Origin: Bacteroidia bacterium | GTDB lineage: Bacteria > Bacteroidota > Bacteroidia > B-17B0 > Aurantibacillaceae | Reading direction: 5' to 3' | Assembly: GCA_022842625.1 (NCBI GenBank) | Contig: JALHPG010000006.1 | Coordinates: forward strand, 1 to 64,000 | Length of the DNA: 64,000 nucleotides | Shown here: in pieces, positions 3,552 through 24,572 of the stretch | Layout of the letters: each line of letters opens with the position of its first letter | How positions within the stretch are numbered: the first letter of the stretch is position 1 | The notes under the pieces: generated by a model | What the model was told of the DNA's origin: nothing | The model's database searches: none | Seen by the model: the letters and a program-made list of their open reading frames with translations, nothing else | Made by a program: the position numbers and the translations under genes

Positions 3552-6500
3552 TTATGCCGCTAAGCGGAGCATTTCTAATTCAAGTTCTAATTCTACTTCC
3601 ACCGCTAGAGCTAAGAGTGATAGTTCTTCCTGCTCTTCAACTTCCTCTGGGCTTAATAGAATGATTGGATGTCGGGCTTTGTGTGCTTCGTTATTTTCAT
3701 TCTCGATACTTTTAAATTGTATCATATCTACCAGTAACGAATCATTAAACTTGGCTTGCAGAATATTTAAGAATGCTTTTAAATTGGCATCTTCTATACT
3801 TGCCACCATTTTATCGGCAGTTTTATTAAAGTTGTTACTGATGACTAATTTTAAAATATCGGTATCTAAAAACACATCGCCACCACGTTGTTTAGATGAT
3901 GGAACAATAATCTTAAATAGATCCCCGGTGCTAAAAATTGAAGTTCCGTTTTGGGTGGTAATTCCTTTACCATTTACCAAACCTTTAATTATTTTCGCTG
4001 CCCTTGCAATGGGAACGGCAACTTTATTTTCCATGCCGTTTTCATCTGCTTCCCAATATTCCGGCATTAAGATTCCTTTTTTGGTTTCATTAGTATTGGT
4101 GGTGTAACTTACTAGCTTACCTTTAAAACTGGCGAACGCCTGTAATAAATTTCCTGTTACGATATAACGTACCCCACGAGATTTACTGCTTGCTTTAATG
4201 GCTTGTTCCCAATTCGCTAATAATTCATCTGTGCTTAGTTCTTCAACATTATAACTTGCGCCAATAATGGCATTTACATCTTGGGTATAAGAAGCGGGAA
4301 TGGCAATGTACTTGTTAGAAGAAGCTAAAGCAAAACGTAAACGGATATTACTTGGCGCATAGGGGTTTTTCTTTTTCTGGTCGATAATAAAACCTAAGAA
4401 TACCGAAGTTATTTTAACATCGCCCTCTGAATAAGAACTAATAGGATAGAGGGTATTCCTGCCAACATAAAAGAATTTAAAAATACCGTTTAGATATTGC
4501 AAACGATTTTTATTTTGGATTTGTAACTTCTCATTTTGTTTGCTACTGGCTTCGTTTAATTCTTTAGTACGTTCCTTTTCATATAATAAATAAGCACCTT
4601 TGCCTTCTTTTTCTAAAATCTTTATTCCCTTTTTTTCATTGGGGATGTCTTTGATAAATTCTGCATAATAGTTTTCGTTAATTGCTAAATCTTTTTCTAA
4701 TTGAGATTTAAAAAATTTGTCTGCTTCTTTAATAATGTGTTGTTGTAATTCTTTTGGATTTAGACCTAAGTCATTGCTTAAACTTTCTTTTAAGATATTT
4801 TCTAGTTCAGTTTTAGTAAATGGTTTGCGTAAGATGTTAGCTTCTACTTTTTCTAAAAAACTATCTGTTCCAAATTCACTATCGCCACCTTTGCCCATAC
4901 GCACTACTTTTTGCGACACCATTTCAGCTTCTAAGTTCATCGCTTCAACCTCTAAGTCATATTCGCCTATTTGTTTTAAGTATTCAACATACTCTATATA
5001 GACTTGCGATATTTCGGTATAAAACTCCGCTTGCATTTTTGTAGAAAGTACCGCCACACGCCCTGATACTTTATGAGCGGCTTCTTCTAATACTTCTCCA
5101 CCTTCATTAGAAGTATCTTCTAATTTTAAAGGATCGCCTAATAATTTATTGGTATCGGGATTATCTTGTAAATATTGTGTAACAATTTTATCGCCATATT
5201 TATTTAAAAAATCGGGTACATCTAAAATTTTGGTGCTTTGTTTTTGGTTAGAGGTGGTATTGGCATCTAAGGATTTCAATTTCTTTTGTAACATCATCAT
5301 TAAACGTTTTTCAGCTGGAACGGCACTCATTACGTAATCATAAATAGGAGCAAGGATTTGTCCAGTACGATTAATACGCCCTCGTTTTTGTACTTCAGTA
5401 TTAATATCTAGTTCGGCTTGTAAAACAATCATAACACGTTGTTTTACCTCCTGTGCATTTACTTTTTTGGTAACGATGGCGTGAGCCGATGCACCAGTTG
5501 CACCTGACTGATTAATTAATAATACATCCACCTCGTTATTATTAAATTGGCGAAAGGCATCATTAGTATTTATTTTGGTACGACTTAAAACAACACCTTT
5601 ATTTGTTTTGGTATTAATTTGTACCTCGTATTTCCGCCCTGTAACTTCAGCAACATTGTAGCCTGCCGCCTTTAATTTTTGAACGATAATATCAATCGGC
5701 GAAATAGAAATCCCTGAGCTTAATGTTTTTATTTTTTTGGAGATCTCTAAAAATTTCTCTCGCACTTCGGGAGCAAATTCATTTAACTGAAATTTTTTAA
5801 ACTCTTTTTTGCCTTCAGGGGTGGTAATTGTGTAACGTAATATACCATCTAAGCCACGTTGCAACACTTCTGAAAAATCAGCATTAATCGTATCTCCATT
5901 AGCCACAGGTAGACCTGCTTCGTTTTCCATTTGCTCAATAAAACTTCCCATAGTAGAAGCAAAAGCAATCACAGGTTTTTTACCTTCTTTCAATCGCATG
6001 ATGGCTCGATCAGCCACTGCATCGGCTTTAATTGAAAATAGCATTTGATTAATTACTTGAAACACTTTAGAGAAGTAGGGCATATTATCAACCCCTGCCG
6101 CAGAAGTTCCGCCACGTTTGGTAATTTCTTTACCCTCTGCAACGGCAATGTCATCCATTTCATCAACCATACTATCTACGTTGGTAGATTGAAAGGAAAT
6201 TATATCACGTAAGATTTCAGTAATGTTATCGGCAATAGCTTTATGCTCGTTCTCTAATTCATCGAGCGTTAAATAGTTCACTTCAATCCCTTCAAAACTT
6301 CTTTCTCTGCGAAGCATTTGTCCTTCCTTCACTAATTGAGAGGCTAATACTTCCTGTAAAGCAACACCACCTTTGGTAATAGCTTCTACTAATTCGTCCT
6401 TACTCATGTTGGCATCGCTGATAGCGGTTTTCATGGCGTAGATGGGCATGTTATCAGGACGTTTGGCAAACGTTGCCGATAAAAAAATTACACCCTTTGC

Positions 6501-9449
6501 ACTGCCAACTATTCCTTGCAGATATTCGCCAGTTTGTGATGAACCCGAAGCATTATGACTTTCATCTAAGATCATAATATTATCTTCTGCGATCACTCTT
6601 AGAAAATTTGGCTTTTCGGGTTTACGGTCAGGTGAATTAAATTGGGTGTAAGTCGCTAATACAAAATCTGCGTTTGCAGGAATACGCTGATCTTTAAAAT
6701 ACACTTGTTGTTCGGCGGGAGATAAGGCGTGATGAATAACCTCTCCGTTTTCATCTTTAATATCGGTTTTACTTTCTCTACCATTAACAATAAACGGAAC
6801 CAAATGAGCAGATCCAATAGCGGTTAAATCTCGGTAGATGTCTGAAAATAAATTTGGCTTTTCTGTAATAAAAATGGGTTTTTTGCCTTGTAAAACGGCG
6901 TAACGAATCATTGCCGCTGCAATACGTCCTTTACCTATTCCTGTTTGGTCACCGATAATCATTCCCTGTTCTCGTGCTTCGATATTATAAATTGCCATTG
7001 CAACGGCATCGGTTTGTTCAGCAGATAAAGCTTTACACAAATCCAGTTTAGAACTATACCCTAAACGTTGGCGAACAAACTCATCCATATTCCCGCCAAC
7101 TTCTTGCTGAATAAATTTTAAGGCTTGGCTTGTTTCATATTCCATAGAATCGGGAACAACGGTATTTAAAACAACACAGCTTTCTGATGCAGGTAAATAG
7201 GGAGCCCCTAAATCAGTTTCATTATTATTCAGTTTGTTTAATTCCGCTTCGAGTTGACTTTCTAAATCTGCAAAAGCATTTTTAAAACTGTGTTCTGCAT
7301 GGCTTGATTTATTTTTTGTTGCTTCTAATTCTTCTGCGATGCCAACACGGTTACCTGCTTTTACTAATTTGTTCAAATACATATCTAAATCGCCAGTTGG
7401 AAATTTTATGTAAGTGAACTCTTGACCGTTTTGATGAAATTGATTTATAGGTAAACTAATTATTTTATTGATAATAGCTACATCATCTTTGAAAGCATAA
7501 TAATTATCTCCTACACGAACTAATAATAAAACATCTTTGTATTTTGGTTTTAAGCCAGTAAAATTTTTAAAAGCTTTTTCAGTTTCCGATTGTTCCATTG
7601 CTGATAATTTTGTGTGAGTGGATGATGTGTTTTCCTTTTCACTAGTGCCGTATTCAAAAGGCAAAGCAGTTCTCATGGCATCCATTACTCTGTCGTATAA
7701 CTCATCAAAACGACTTACAACTTTTGCATTGTAGGTATTAGAAGTTGGGGCAACACCGCTTGCTTTTTCTTTCCTGCCATTAATTAAAATCAAGCGTGTA
7801 TTAAAACTTGTGCCTTGGCGAGAATATAATTTACTGCCGTCAATAGGAATAACATCCATGACATTAAAATGCGAGTACAAATAATTAAAGAAAATACGAT
7901 TACCGCCTTTTAAGATCCTTCCTTTGTCATCATATTTAGTGTGACCACCAATTATAATGGCTGACTTGCCATTGTCTTTTACCATTTCTAAAGCACGGAT
8001 TGCCATCAAATGGTCGAGTGTATCAATCGGGTAATTATCAAACTCAACTGTTTTATTTAATCTTCCAAAGGGTGGGTTAGTAATTACTGCATCAAATTTT
8101 TTATTCCAGTTAACATCTAATGATTTTGAAAACGGTTTTGTAGCATCTTCTTGATAAACACTTCTAAACCCCTGAGTTTGTAAATGCAAATGGCGAGTGT
8201 TATCAATTTCATTTACTCTGAAATAATATGGGTTGGCGGCAATGGTTAATAAGCCGTTCCCTGCGCTTGGTTCAAAAGCAATTTTCTCTTTTTCTTCTTC
8301 AAATTTATCTACACCACAAAAAATGCCTGCTAAAAAACCTATCGGTGCAGGAGTAGAATACTGCTGTAATAAAATACTTTGTGAAGTGCGGTGTGATAAA
8401 TTAACTTGAGTTTCATACAAGCGTACAATTTTTTTATAGCGTTCGCTAACTGAAAGTTGTTTGGATTGAGCAATACTTCTTGCGGTAATGACGATGGCTA
8501 ACTCAATTAATTCTTTGATATTATTTTTATCATAAATTTTAAATGAAGCGCCTAATTTTTCTAATACCGTTTTATTACCGATAGTTTCTAGTTCGATTCG
8601 ACGAAGAACTTGGGTTAAAAATTGTTGGTGGTTAAGCGGTAATAAAGAAAAACTGGTTTCTGAGGGTAAACCATCTAATCCACTCATCATACCCTCATCT
8701 CCAAATGAATAAAAATCTTCACTTGTTATGATTATGTGGTCAAGCACATTAATATCAAAAAGTTGTGCGGTTTCTTTGATTTTTTTAGTGATGGCAACAT
8801 CTTCATTACTTGGTTTGGTATTACCGCTTGGGTGGTTGTGTGATAAGAGGATAGAAGTACAAGCGGATTTAACCGCTACCGCCATTATTAAACGGATGTC
8901 CACGATTGTTCCCGTTAGACCACCTTTACTATGGCGGTAATAACCCAGTACTTTATTCTGACGGTTGAGATACAAAATAATAAACTGCTCCTGTAAATCT
9001 ATTTCGCCGTCGGGATAAATATCTCTCAATACTTTCTCGGCATCTTTGGACGAGTTAACTTTCGCTAATAGTTTACTATCTGTTCCACGATGGTATTGAA
9101 TTTTAATTTCGGGGATATTTATTTCAGTAACATCGCCTAAAATAATTTCAGGTTGCTCAGAATAATAACAACTACTTGGTTCCATCGCATCTGAGCCGTT
9201 GTGCCAATCTTCCATCAAATCCCAGTCAATAACTTCTATCAAATCTTCTATACTGTTATACCACTTTGTATCTCTGCCAAAACCAATAATTTTTAAGGAT
9301 CCTTTTTGCTTTTCGATTTCCTGCACCATAATTTGAGAAAACAAATCACCTTTCCAACCAAACGGTTGTTTGAACGTAATGATTTTTCCTTTTTCATTAA
9401 TTGCTTTAATCCGTTTGGCTTTAGTATCGTATAATTTTGCTTTTGACAT
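3552..9449 (-). CDS. Giant polyvalent protein: JAB peptidase - DNA methyltransferase - MutS-I-like - Strawberry-notch helicase
   Basis: 1,965 aa. Domains in order: a RadC/JAB metalloprotease-like domain at about 120-255 with E154, the SHNHPSG motif (203-209) and D217; an N6-adenine-type DNA methyltransferase at about 350-560 with EPSAGNG (393-399) and NPPF (458-461); a MutS domain-I-like module at about 632-712 (DVLLLVRVGDNYYAF ... AGNRVGIAEELE); and a Strawberry-notch-type SF2 helicase from about 800 with Walker A GDQTGIGKG (833-841), a DESH box and an arginine-finger-like QKRGRINRTGQ. The C-terminal 500 residues are unassigned. Such polyvalent proteins belong to phages and conjugative elements and are thought to protect or remodel incoming DNA. 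It is the strongest single indication that the operon is mobile. Confidence 0.92.
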   Translation of the reverse strand: MSKAKLYDTKAKRIKAINEKGKIITFKQPFGWKGDLFSQIMVQEIEKQKGSLKIIGFGRDTKWYNSIEDLIEVIDWDLMEDWHNGSDAMEPSSCYYSEQPEIILGDVTEINIPEIKIQYHRGTDSKLLAKVNSSKDAEKVLRDIYPDGEIDLQEQFIILYLNRQNKVLGYYRHSKGGLTGTIVDIRLIMAVAVKSACTSILLSHNHPSGNTKPSNEDVAITKKIKETAQLFDINVLDHIIITSEDFYSFGDEGMMSGLDGLPSETSFSLLPLNHQQFLTQVLRRIELETIGNKTVLEKLGASFKIYDKNNIKELIELAIVITARSIAQSKQLSVSERYKKIVRLYETQVNLSHRTSQSILLQQYSTPAPIGFLAGIFCGVDKFEEEKEKIAFEPSAGNGLLTIAANPYYFRVNEIDNTRHLHLQTQGFRSVYQEDATKPFSKSLDVNWNKKFDAVITNPPFGRLNKTVEFDNYPIDTLDHLMAIRALEMVKDNGKSAIIIGGHTKYDDKGRILKGGNRIFFNYLYSHFNVMDVIPIDGSKLYSRQGTSFNTRLILINGRKEKASGVAPTSNTYNAKVVSRFDELYDRVMDAMRTALPFEYGTSEKENTSSTHTKLSAMEQSETEKAFKNFTGLKPKYKDVLLLVRVGDNYYAFKDDVAIINKIISLPINQFHQNGQEFTYIKFPTGDLDMYLNKLVKAGNRVGIAEELEATKNKSSHAEHSFKNAFADLESQLEAELNKLNNNETDLGAPYLPASESCVVLNTVVPDSMEYETSQALKFIQQEVGGNMDEFVRQRLGYSSKLDLCKALSAEQTDAVAMAIYNIEAREQGMIIGDQTGIGKGRIAAAMIRYAVLQGKKPIFITEKPNLFSDIYRDLTAIGSAHLVPFIVNGRESKTDIKDENGEVIHHALSPAEQQVYFKDQRIPANADFVLATYTQFNSPDRKPEKPNFLRVIAEDNIMILDESHNASGSSQTGEYLQGIVGSAKGVIFLSATFAKRPDNMPIYAMKTAISDANMSKDELVEAITKGGVALQEVLASQLVKEGQMLRRERSFEGIEVNYLTLDELENEHKAIADNITEILRDIISFQSTNVDSMVDEMDDIAVAEGKEITKRGGTSAAGVDNMPYFSKVFQVINQMLFSIKADAVADRAIMRLKEGKKPVIAFASTMGSFIEQMENEAGLPVANGDTINADFSEVLQRGLDGILRYTITTPEGKKEFKKFQLNEFAPEVREKFLEISKKIKTLSSGISISPIDIIVQKLKAAGYNVAEVTGRKYEVQINTKTNKGVVLSRTKINTNDAFRQFNNNEVDVLLINQSGATGASAHAIVTKKVNAQEVKQRVMIVLQAELDINTEVQKRGRINRTGQILAPIYDYVMSAVPAEKRLMMMLQKKLKSLDANTTSNQKQSTKILDVPDFLNKYGDKIVTQYLQDNPDTNKLLGDPLKLEDTSNEGGEVLEEAAHKVSGRVAVLSTKMQAEFYTEISQVYIEYVEYLKQIGEYDLEVEAMNLEAEMVSQKVVRMGKGGDSEFGTDSFLEKVEANILRKPFTKTELENILKESLSNDLGLNPKELQQHIIKEADKFFKSQLEKDLAINENYYAEFIKDIPNEKKGIKILEKEGKGAYLLYEKERTKELNEASSKQNEKLQIQNKNRLQYLNGIFKFFYVGRNTLYPISSYSEGDVKITSVFLGFIIDQKKKNPYAPSNIRLRFALASSNKYIAIPASYTQDVNAIIGASYNVEELSTDELLANWEQAIKASSKSRGVRYIVTGNLLQAFASFKGKLVSYTTNTNETKKGILMPEYWEADENGMENKVAVPIARAAKIIKGLVNGKGITTQNGTSIFSTGDLFKIIVPSSKQRGGDVFLDTDILKLVISNNFNKTADKMVASIEDANLKAFLNILQAKFNDSLLVDMIQFKSIENENNEAHKARHPIILLSPEEVEEQEELSLLALAVEVELELELEMLRLAA

Positions 9450-20243: not shown

Positions 20244-21620
20244 ATGTCAATTATAGTTAGTAATATCATTTGTAATGAAATACTTAATGCTTTGGTAAAT
20301 TCAAAAGGTTTAAATATTCAAGTCTTCTTAGACCAAAAATTCGGGATATCCAAAAAGGAAACTGTTGCTTTTTATGAAAGAAAGTTAAAAGATGAGGGTC
20401 ATGTTACCTATCACACATTGCCGGATAGATCATTATGCCACTACATTTCACCCTCTGGTGCCATTTTCCAAAAACATGGTGGATACCCCACTGATACGTT
20501 GACTTTAGCAAAGAACCTAATTGAAAAATCCGGGATTCAAGCTAGCACACCAAAAAGTTTTGATGAAACATTTTCTGATCTAAGTAATAAAACCATCTCT
20601 TCAATAAATCAACTCTCAAAAAGTACAACTGAAATAAATGACTTTATAACGGAAATAACCAAGATTAAAGAATATCTCGAAACAAGAATTACTGTAATAG
20701 GAAAAAACGAATTAGAACCATTTTATACAAAAATTTTGGTTTTTCTCAGAGATTATTACGGGAATGAAAGTGCAGAGGTGTCACAGTTTAAAAGAATAAA
20801 AAAATCTGTAACAACCAATCGCCTAATTCCGTTTTTAGTAAAAATTATTACTGAGCAGGAATTGAAAATAAAAAGGGTGACAAATGGAAAAACTAAACCG
20901 TCAATCAACGAACTAGGTGCTAGCGATTTAGAAGTTATGTCACGTCTTGGACATACTGTGAAAAAATTAATAAACCCCAATGATAAAAAGCTTATAAATT
21001 ATGTTTTAAACGAATGCGAAAATATAAAACAAGCGCTCGAATTAACGGAGTACTCTGATTTTGTGAAAATTAGGGGTCATCATACAGGAGTCGGGGCATT
21101 ATTAAACAGGATTTATATAAAAGAACAAAATCCGTTCAATCAGTTAACTGGTTCAATTAATAGAGATGAGTTAATTTCAATATGCACAATTGTTAAGCAT
21201 GATCTTGAAATAGAATTGCTTGATTCAAAAAGCATTTTATCAAATTTACATCCAAAAGTCCTTGAGGTTTCTGAAAAACAATTTAATAATAATCACTATA
21301 GAGATGCTGTTGTAAATTCATATATCGCATTAATTGAAGTTATAAAAGAGAAATTTCCTAATAAAAATGAATCTGGAAAATTAAAAGACGGAGTAGAATT
21401 GATGCAGGAAGTTTTTTCAAAAGGTAATCCAAAAATAAAATTTAGTGAAGACGGAGGTGAGCAGCAAGGAATGATGAATCTCTATATTGGTGCGGTAGGA
21501 GGAATTAGAAATAAATACGGTCATAAAACCAGTAATATCAAGGATGAAAAGTATGCGTTAGAACTTTTACATTTTGCCAGTGCTTTGTTTAGGTTATTTG
21601 ATGATCCTAGCATTTATTAA
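20244..21620 (+). CDS. Hypoth_Ymh/HEPN family protein, probable abortive-infection gene
   Basis: 458 aa. The N-terminal 330 residues are helical and unassigned. The C-terminal about 110 residues match the Hypoth_Ymh family: NNHYRDAVVNSYIALIEVIK, a conserved Gly-rich turn, then GGIRNKYGHKTSN with R-x4-H, and a terminal helix LELLHFASALFRLFD. This family is HEPN-related and common beside restriction and defence genes, so an abortive-infection or cargo defence role is likely. It is transcribed opposite to the main operon and its 3' end overlaps the convergent 71-aa gene by 4 bp. Confidence 0.85.
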   Translation: MSIIVSNIICNEILNALVNSKGLNIQVFLDQKFGISKKETVAFYERKLKDEGHVTYHTLPDRSLCHYISPSGAIFQKHGGYPTDTLTLAKNLIEKSGIQASTPKSFDETFSDLSNKTISSINQLSKSTTEINDFITEITKIKEYLETRITVIGKNELEPFYTKILVFLRDYYGNESAEVSQFKRIKKSVTTNRLIPFLVKIITEQELKIKRVTNGKTKPSINELGASDLEVMSRLGHTVKKLINPNDKKLINYVLNECENIKQALELTEYSDFVKIRGHHTGVGALLNRIYIKEQNPFNQLTGSINRDELISICTIVKHDLEIELLDSKSILSNLHPKVLEVSEKQFNNNHYRDAVVNSYIALIEVIKEKFPNKNESGKLKDGVELMQEVFSKGNPKIKFSEDGGEQQGMMNLYIGAVGGIRNKYGHKTSNIKDEKYALELLHFASALFRLFDDPSIY

Positions 21621-22822: not shown

Positions 22823-24529
22823 ATGGTTAAAAATAATCCTTTTCGCCTTGAAGAAGTGTTGCAAAATAGTATCTTTATAATGCTCATGAATGAACCTCAG
22901 GAAGATCTTGACGAAAAATATCAAAACGTTTTTGCCGATACGACAAAAGGAAATTCTATTCACATTTCTCAAGCTGAAAGTGGGCGGAAAGGTTATTTCT
23001 GCCAAGGATGCGGTAAACAATTAGAAGCAGTAAGGCATAAAGTGCCAAACCGGATAGATTACTTCCGCCATGTTCCAATGGATGTTAAACATGATCAAAA
23101 ATGTACATATAGAGATGAAACATACCGGCATAAATTAGCAAAAGAAGCGCTAGGCAGATTAAAACACATTAAAGTACCAGCCGTTTATAAATTTCCTTCT
23201 AAAGGAGAAGAGGGTTTAGCAAACTTATTAGTTGAATCTATTTTAATAGACGCACATTCCGTTGAAATGGAAAGAACCTTTTATGAGGATGAATCAGGCG
23301 AAATTAAATGGGGTTCGGGGCAAGGAGTAGATGAAAAGTATTTATTAATAAGACCTGATGTAGTCTTTTTTGATATAGACAAAAAACCTCTTCTTTTAAT
23401 TGAACTCGTTGCAACGCATAAACCTGACAATGAAAAAAAGGCGAAGTTGCGACGATTGGGTATTAATGCAATACAAGTTTCTATTCCAAAAGATACAGAA
23501 GCTGCAATAGAAGCAGCACTATATAATACAAAAAGAATTAAATGGCTATATAACAATGTCGAACAATCAACCACTTACGTATCAGTTCCCTTTTCAACTT
23601 CAGAGGGAATATCACAAATTGATGAACAGCAAAAACGATTTTTTGCAGAGACTTTCGAATGCCGACAAGCGGAAGTTAGAAACCTCATACGAACAATTAC
23701 AAGGGTGCTGGAATCTAAACAATTCGGAGAAGTTATCAAGCAGCTTGGAGACGATTTATCAAGAGTTAAGGGAAATACAGAGGAACATCAATCAAAATTG
23801 GACGGACTTCGAGAAGAGTATAGAAACAGAGCTGTTAAATCAGTTGAATCAGAAGAAGAAGAATTTGCAAAAAAGTTTGATGATTTTAACAAACAACAAA
23901 CTGAGTTTCAAAAATACTCTTGGGAATTGGAAACAAGATATTTTGCAAAAAGAAGCTCACTTAAAAGCGACCAAGAAAGCATTGACAGCATTGCAAATGG
24001 AGAAAGTCAGGGAAGAGGAGGGACTGCAATTGGCATTGAAAGCAGACGAAGAGAAGTTGAACGAGCTAAAGCTGAGATTGAAGAACTCATTAGAAAAGAA
24101 GAATCAGAAATTGCTAAGCTTGAACGAGAAGAAAATGGATTACCAGAACGATTTGAGCAACTTAGAGAATCAGTTATTACAAAATTTGCAACCATTGAAG
24201 GAAATGAAAAACGAGAAATGGAGGAGCTTGGACTCGAAGAGGCAGGATTACCAAAAGAGTTTGAGGAAAAAGAAGGAAAACTTTCAGGAGAATATAAACA
24301 GCTTGAGGATGAGCTTAGAGAGCAGTTTGAAAAATCACGAGAATACACAGATAAAATTATTATGTCAAGAGATGGAAAAGGAAATACCAAATTGCACTAT
24401 CGAATTCGTGGATTATTGGAGGCAAGGGAACTTCTCGATGATAGCAGCAAGGCACAAAGTTATAACCAAAGAAACAGAAAGGCTTGGAGAGCTTATCAGG
24501 ATGGGACTTACAAAGATTGGATTGAGTGA
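22823..24529 (+). CDS. CoiA-like nuclease with long coiled-coil C-terminus
   Basis: 568 aa. The N-terminal region resembles CoiA: a CQGCG zinc-type motif (about residue 60), a YFRHV motif, the DETYRHKLAKEAL helix, and a PD-(D/E)XK-like core RPDVVFFDIDKKPLLLIELV. The DNA-binding/competence family is often found on Bacteroidota mobile elements. From about residue 245 the protein is a Glu/Lys/Arg-rich coiled coil, ending LHYRIRGLLEAREL ... GTYKDWIE. Leucine codons switch from TTA-rich in the first half to CTT/CTC-rich in the second half, coinciding with the overlapping open frame at 23556. A frameshift somewhere in the region cannot be excluded. Confidence 0.8.
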   Translation: MVKNNPFRLEEVLQNSIFIMLMNEPQEDLDEKYQNVFADTTKGNSIHISQAESGRKGYFCQGCGKQLEAVRHKVPNRIDYFRHVPMDVKHDQKCTYRDETYRHKLAKEALGRLKHIKVPAVYKFPSKGEEGLANLLVESILIDAHSVEMERTFYEDESGEIKWGSGQGVDEKYLLIRPDVVFFDIDKKPLLLIELVATHKPDNEKKAKLRRLGINAIQVSIPKDTEAAIEAALYNTKRIKWLYNNVEQSTTYVSVPFSTSEGISQIDEQQKRFFAETFECRQAEVRNLIRTITRVLESKQFGEVIKQLGDDLSRVKGNTEEHQSKLDGLREEYRNRAVKSVESEEEEFAKKFDDFNKQQTEFQKYSWELETRYFAKRSSLKSDQESIDSIANGESQGRGGTAIGIESRRREVERAKAEIEELIRKEESEIAKLEREENGLPERFEQLRESVITKFATIEGNEKREMEELGLEEAGLPKEFEEKEGKLSGEYKQLEDELREQFEKSREYTDKIIMSRDGKGNTKLHYRIRGLLEARELLDDSSKAQSYNQRNRKAWRAYQDGTYKDWIE

Positions 24530-24572
24530 AGAGAAATTCTTTAGATTATTGGATAAAAACGTAACGAACTAA
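23556..24572 (+). CDS. Long open frame overlapping the CoiA-like gene (candidate dual-coding gene)
   Basis: 338 codons, +1 frame relative to the CoiA-like gene and open for 1,017 bp, ending 43 bp beyond it. The product would be a soluble coiled-coil protein (MSNNQPLTYQFPFQLQ start; ERLGELIRMGLTKIGLSEEK near the C-terminus) with several Trp residues. Either this is a true overlapping gene, the authentic continuation of the upstream frame after a frameshift, or a shadow of GA-rich coiled-coil coding. By my hand count, TTA codons followed by A or G in the CoiA frame (which would create stops here) number 8 before the overlap and 0 within it. No clear RBS precedes the ATG. Confidence 0.4.
   Translation: MSNNQPLTYQFPFQLQREYHKLMNSKNDFLQRLSNADKRKLETSYEQLQGCWNLNNSEKLSSSLETIYQELREIQRNINQNWTDFEKSIETELLNQLNQKKKNLQKSLMILTNNKLSFKNTLGNWKQDILQKEAHLKATKKALTALQMEKVREEEGLQLALKADEEKLNELKLRLKNSLEKKNQKLLSLNEKKMDYQNDLSNLENQLLQNLQPLKEMKNEKWRSLDSKRQDYQKSLRKKKENFQENINSLRMSLESSLKNHENTQIKLLCQEMEKEIPNCTIEFVDYWRQGNFSMIAARHKVITKETERLGELIRMGLTKIGLSEEKFFRLLDKNVTN

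Follow-up and report, generated by a model that had tools for sequence, protein, structure and literature searches.

The window analysed here, a stretch of 64,000 nucleotides, carries on its forward strand a CoiA-like gene of 568 amino acids (22823..24529, here called the outer gene), which is represented by 13 homologous loci elsewhere. Its product is predicted to comprise a Zn-binding N-terminal part, a PD-(D/E)XK-like nuclease domain and a coiled-coil tail. A second open reading frame lies inside it on the same strand, in the +1 frame, at exactly the position given in an earlier note on this DNA: it starts with an ATG, covers 23556..24572 and encodes a putative coiled-coil protein of 338 amino acids (the inner gene). 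The segment read in both frames (23556..24529) is 974 nt long, ends with the outer stop codon and contains no stops in either frame, and its length is to be compared with the overlap of at least 90 bp in different frames by which non-trivial overlapping genes are defined (PMC7103648). The inner ATG (23556..23558) is located ~730 nt into the outer gene, directly 3' of a conserved outer W-x-Y-N, and straddles two outer codons, taking its A and T from the end of one and its G from the start of the next.

The part of the outer gene that precedes the overlap (22940..23554) contains columns that are invariant in the alignment. Cys60, Cys63, His83 and Cys94, which resemble a set of Zn ligands, are invariant in 11 sequences, as are the nuclease-like residues Pro178, Glu194 and Lys200, with Asp179 nearly so; these residues are the set that we take to define CoiA. 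The CoiA_N profile (PF25164) is matched by three of the 11 relatives, with the best E-value of 7e-8, and is not matched by the protein of the window itself; annotated CoiA proteins were found by tblastn at 28–35% identity. The top Foldseek match of this region is the PD-(D/E)XK nuclease Can2, a weak match (E=0.015), and the model of the outer protein is of low confidence (pLDDT 62); the structure models were built from smaller alignments of the homologous loci. These weak profile and fold matches point to a predicted Zn-finger/PD-(D/E)XK-like CoiA nuclease that ends with a coiled-coil tail.

The AlphaFold2 model of the inner protein (mean pLDDT 80) consists of a helical N-terminal cap, one long helix and a helical C-terminal cap. 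Residues 1–60 (23556..23735, with predicted helices within residues 12–53) form its best conserved part, with the pattern TYQFP..LQ..YH.LMNS..FL....A..R.L..LYE.L...W..N. The long coiled-coil arm, predicted as a single helix, comprises residues 57–276 (23724..24383), and the C-terminal cap, which is conserved in the alignment and partly extends past the outer stop, comprises residues 280–338 (24393..24569) with predicted helices 282–290, 293–321 and 325–335. Searches for a known family returned for the inner protein only cross-matches to other coiled coils, such as SMC, apolipoprotein and TrlF, and the fold search with its model gave nothing meaningful (best E of 0.5). The PADLOC anti-phage models yielded only coiled-coil or weak restriction-enzyme matches, with the best E-value of ~3e-4. 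By codon usage, compared as a guide to the relative age of the two frames, in the window the outer gene looks native and the inner one does not (0.116 versus -0.105, with the genome mean of 0.177 and standard deviation of 0.047), a pattern with which the other loci, for which few reference genes were available, disagree.

All 13 relatives belong to Bacteroidota, and most of them share ~22–38% protein identity. They include a genome of the same genus (G022, 65% identity), two Fibrella, two Spirosoma and one Hymenobacter plasmid, one IMG/VR contig, and six more genomes of the class; together with the window they make 14 loci. Each relative contains a nested +1 ORF of ~258–349 amino acids that starts right after the nuclease domain, at outer codon ~217–245, and ends 31–82 nt past the outer stop, with the exception of the plasmid of Spirosoma sp. 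KNUC1025. Thus, when relatives were searched for the absence of an open second frame, or for stops accumulating in it at a neutral rate, as the earlier note had suggested, both frames were found open in 14 of 14 loci, and the dual-coding reading held. One genome (G934) was located with the non-overlapping N-terminal domain alone, so that the nested ORF present in it provides an independent test.

The pair is sparse, occurring in four of 395 genomes of the class and in three of 399 genomes of one order. The profiles of the inner and outer proteins match the identical four of the 395 genomes, neither being seen there without the other. No standalone homologue of the inner protein was detected in the plasmid collection, in the 395 genomes, or in the viral contigs scanned with the inner protein of the window, and no match was found in phage records. 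The neighbours of the pair differ everywhere, with no constant operon partner across the 13 loci; they include TIR-TM, AbiLi/AbiLii and E1-like genes, integrases, and a transposase-like ORF.

Several features of individual neighbourhoods may be described here. In the window, a neighbouring gene (20244..21620, forward strand) encodes a protein with a Hypoth_Ymh domain (PF09509, 5.6e-23) and with weak similarity to Aga_HEPN (PADLOC, 1e-7), possibly another gene of defence type. On a Fibrella plasmid (L005), a second protein with a CoiA_N domain (5749–7338, minus strand, E 5.4e-7) adjoins the overlapping pair; it has no nested +1 ORF, and its neighbours are AbiLi/AbiLii-like genes. An ORF near another homologue (L017, 11575–12570, minus strand) combines a PLD-like nuclease domain with a partial Hsp70-like stretch. 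The gene table of the Hymenobacter sp. DG25B plasmid (NZ_CP010055, L008:4542-5588) lists the inner ORF as PK28_RS17135 and omits the outer CoiA-like ORF, the reverse of the tables of the other plasmids.

A long second frame might be a chance by-product of the low-T, coiled-coil codon composition of the outer gene, and two properties of the overlap agree with such an origin, namely that the segment is poor in T (0.16–0.21) and that the genetic code does carry a coil pattern over to the +1 frame. The openness of the frame nevertheless far exceeds what composition provides. With the outer protein of the window fixed, permutation of synonymous codons leaves on average 7.2 stops in the inner frame, and draws from the codon usage of the gene itself leave 18.1, with no stop-free sequence among 5000 draws of either kind. 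Over 13 loci, the window included, the inner frame contains 0 stops versus 83 (permutation) and 166 (codon usage) expected with the outer proteins fixed, whereas the unused +2 frame of the same segments contains 455 in total. Three CoiA-like relatives in which the overlap is absent show 15, 24 and 28 +1-frame stops. Among 230 other ORFs of at least 250 amino acids from ~440 kb of the same genome, sampled as 19 stretches of 20 kb and the window, the longest same-strand overlap with an alternative ORF is 294 nt, compared to 974 nt here.

Two patterns of codon choice described in the earlier note are reproduced exactly. In the outer frame, TTA accounts for 10 of 22 Leu codons before the overlap, eight of them followed by A or G, and for four of 23 within it, none followed by A or G; in the window alone, these counts reach only moderate significance (Fisher P = 0.057 and 0.015). 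In the inner frame, all 30 pyrimidine-ending codons that precede AA, AG or GA end in C rather than T, compared to 21 C and 53 T elsewhere. Since this second pattern is a necessary consequence of the open outer frame, it restates the absence of outer stops. The strong evidence is that obtained above with the outer protein fixed.

A further signal comes from the third position of the outer codons, which is the second position of the inner ones. Its identity between homologues is 0.31–0.46, near saturation, before the inner ATG, and 0.55–0.70 over the first 60 codons that follow, with no accompanying rise in the identity of the outer amino acids. The switch is located at the inner ATG. Every one of the 66 homologue pairs shows higher conservation of the outer third position in the overlap than before it (mean 0.51 and 0.36, respectively), and the identity of the outer first position drops from 0.54 to 0.43. 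When one protein was fixed and the similarity of the other was compared to permuted synonymous codons, with stops scored as neutral, the median z was 5.3 in both directions. This test takes no account of the common ancestry of synonymous codons, but third positions outside the overlap are already close to saturation in every pair except the closest. Chance or compositional openness is thus ruled out by permutation, homologue and genome-wide controls, and in view of the similarity of the inner proteins above the synonymous null and of the third-position switch, we regard the probability that the inner frame is such a by-product as negligible.

Estimation of dN/dS in each frame, also proposed in the earlier note, gave evidence of purifying selection on both: an OLGenie-style count for the closest pair yields dNN/dNS of 0.27 (95% interval 0.17–0.40) for the inner frame and dNN/dSN of 0.59 (0.40–0.86) for the outer one. 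In distant pairs, the outer dNN/dSN in the overlap is 0.89–1.01, indistinguishable from neutral, at distances at which the method is weak, as OLGenie loses power when they are large (PMC7531306). Selection on the outer frame in these pairs is therefore judged from the absence of stops and from the permutation test. It could be argued that only the inner protein matters in the overlap, and that the outer C terminus is no more than a read-through extension that a short CoiA nuclease tolerates; the stronger constraint on the inner frame and the values near 1 in distant pairs are in line with this, and other CoiA proteins are indeed short (300–369 amino acids). On the other hand, with the inner proteins of the 13 loci fixed, the outer frame has 0 stops versus 185 and 350 expected by permutation and codon usage, respectively, and the similarity of the outer proteins lies above the null (z>2) in 97% of pairs. 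Moreover, the C-terminal motif SG-x-[YWF]-K-x-W and the segment C.....(Q/E)(I/L)..LIR.I...L of the outer protein are conserved inside the overlap, making the read-through extension highly improbable. Both frames are conserved as coding sequences and show purifying selection, with a weaker signal for the outer frame in distant pairs.

The start of the inner gene can be considered in the same comparison. The inner ATG occupies the same position in most loci, is displaced in two (L010 and L012), and is not found at the homologous position in Hymenobacter (L008). The mRNA around the inner start is little folded, ranking in 10 of 13 loci no higher than the gene's 20th percentile. Neither a Shine-Dalgarno sequence nor a promoter motif could be assigned to the inner gene; a Bacteroidota-type promoter motif had no match near its start and was not enriched in the window. 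At 23541–23558 of the window, and at the homologous positions of many loci, there is a mini-ORF of four to six codons in the third frame, which begins at a conserved Trp codon, TGG, preceded by A, G or T, and ends either at TAA just before the inner ATG or at TGA overlapping it. It could be a re-initiation device or the mere result of the conserved W-x-Y-N-x-E sequence.

The earlier note had named a frameshift joining the two frames as the alternative to dual coding. By programmed frameshifting or slippage, the second frame would provide the C terminus of a fusion between the nuclease and the inner protein and would not be initiated separately. The inner frame is open for 14–37 codons upstream of the ATG in most loci, and in one Spirosoma plasmid the two frames are joined at an A-run. 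However, the inner ATG is conserved, constraint begins at this codon and not upstream, and in three relatives (L012, L029 and L008) the inner frame is closed by a stop two to five codons before the inner start. A second frame both open and constrained upstream of any start codon, the mark of programmed frameshifting, was thus not found, and the Spirosoma join is a single case, in which both frames are still recognisable on each side. Because of the upstream stops in three loci and the lack of upstream constraint, internal initiation is preferred and frameshifting appears very improbable; the inner protein is probably started at the internal ATG.

The exceptional Spirosoma plasmid (sp. KNUC1025, NZ_CP087140) deserves a separate description. 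At L006:5395-5470 its outer ORF enters the inner frame at the A-run, with the result that the deposited outer protein carries the inner C terminus and the inner ORF is cut to 258 amino acids. Both original frames continue past the join, as would be expected of an indel or of a sequencing error in the homopolymer.

The nature of the two proteins offers a reason why an overlap of this length can be maintained. Synonymous permutation does not abolish the hydrophobic seam that the outer coil imprints on the +1 frame: the phase-lock is 0.38–0.73 in the permuted null and 0.45–0.92 as observed. In 8 of 11 loci the inner protein is more periodic than this null (P<0.05). The carry-over of the coil agrees with a report that frameshifting preserves hydrophobicity profiles (PMC7084103). 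The overlap would be tolerable because the heptad pattern of an amphipathic helix survives, through the genetic code, in the +1 frame, with the result that one coil is written on top of another.

The comparative evidence, consisting of 14 deeply divergent loci in which both frames are constrained and the switch lies at the start codon, is strong, and lends strong support to the dual-coding reading of the earlier note. We have little doubt, on these comparisons, that the locus is a genuine and old same-strand dual-coding gene pair. One mRNA would encode a CoiA-like nuclease with a long coiled coil as its C-terminal tail, and the DNA of this tail would also encode a separate coiled-coil protein in the +1 frame. 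Translation of the latter would most likely begin at an ATG inside the outer gene, just after the nuclease domain, where the mRNA is little folded. The two conserved open frames and the selection acting on them are observed directly; internal initiation and the shared mRNA are what we infer from them.

As to function, the pair appears to travel as a self-contained mobile cassette with no constant neighbour, and as the likeliest function the inner protein would bind the coiled-coil tail of the nuclease, either to build a joint structure or to hold the enzyme in check like an antitoxin, in a role related to host- or plasmid-borne defence or to the control of DNA uptake. We can put forward such a two-protein cassette, acting in defence or DNA-uptake control, only tentatively, at somewhat less than an even chance; the link to defence is suggested by the neighbourhood and by analogy. 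A little more doubtful, though still a possibility to be reckoned with, is a two-component nuclease system whose two subunits, read in different frames of the same kilobase, would pair through their overlapping codons' products into a heteromeric coiled coil. If that were the case, every in-frame indel would alter the length of both arms together, few same-strand out-of-frame pairs known from cellular genomes would be both as long and as deeply conserved, and the frame-robustness of the code for amphipathic helices would have made the overlap possible.

It is also conceivable that the two genes form an intragenic toxin–antitoxin pair, in which the inner coil would silence a toxic nuclease as RpnS does RpnL. 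The Rpn enzymes are of the PD-(D/E)XK type and have their antitoxin encoded inside the toxin gene (PMC10327210), the present cassette is mobile and patchy, sometimes with defence neighbours, and the inner gene is never found without the outer one. The inner product of Rpn, however, is in frame and identical to the toxin's own C terminus, whereas here it is a different protein, and we consider this option unlikely.

Non-trivial overlapping genes are a kind already known. In cellular genomes, long out-of-frame overlaps are expected to be rare and to be removed, and they are left out by annotation pipelines (PMC7103648); few bacterial cases have accordingly been established, and those reported tend to be short or antisense. 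Characterised cases are described as typically short (PMC7103648). No paper describing this gene pair was found in the literature searched, within which a same-strand, ~1 kb out-of-frame pair conserved at 22–38% identity across families is new. Outside viruses, a double reading maintained in fourteen distantly related copies is most unusual. If the inner frame is translated, annotation misses a protein of ~300–340 amino acids in annotated carriers (in Hymenobacter, the outer one instead), and the pair offers a concrete, testable example of coiled coils that share DNA.

In comparison with the CoiA family (PF25164), the outer protein has a similar N-terminal Cys/His set and a nuclease-like P-D...E...K region, and differs by its long coiled-coil C-terminal tail with dual-coding DNA; the annotated CoiA proteins of Cupriavidus and Thermoanaerobacterium (369 and 300 amino acids) have no such tail. 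A CoiA-domain protein has been recovered in a screen for anti-phage systems (PMC9519451). The nearest mechanistic parallel is offered by the Rpn genes-within-genes, which give protection against phage and whose PD-(D/E)XK nuclease is silenced by a product made from within its own gene (PMC10327210). They resemble the present pair in having an internal start for a second product within a gene for a nuclease of this type, as well as in their horizontal transfer and link to phage defence (PMC10327210). Their inner product, read in the same frame, corresponds to the C-terminal portion of the larger protein, whereas here the inner gene is out of frame (+1 in all loci) and its 338-residue product is unrelated in sequence to the outer tail. 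In phage Rz/Rz1 spanins, one gene is nested in the +1 frame of the other, an arrangement shared with the pair described here. Their products work together, as those of the present pair would, but they are short viral lysis genes (PMC6139136). The rnpA/rpmH genes of Thermus are also nested bacterial genes on the same strand in different frames, although their start codons are one nucleotide apart at a single initiation site (PMC9841429), compared to ~730 nt here. Finally, pop/ompA (603 bp) is likewise a non-trivial overlap in a cellular genome (PMC7103648), but it is antisense, whereas the overlap described here lies on the same strand, spans 974 nt and is conserved across families of Bacteroidota.
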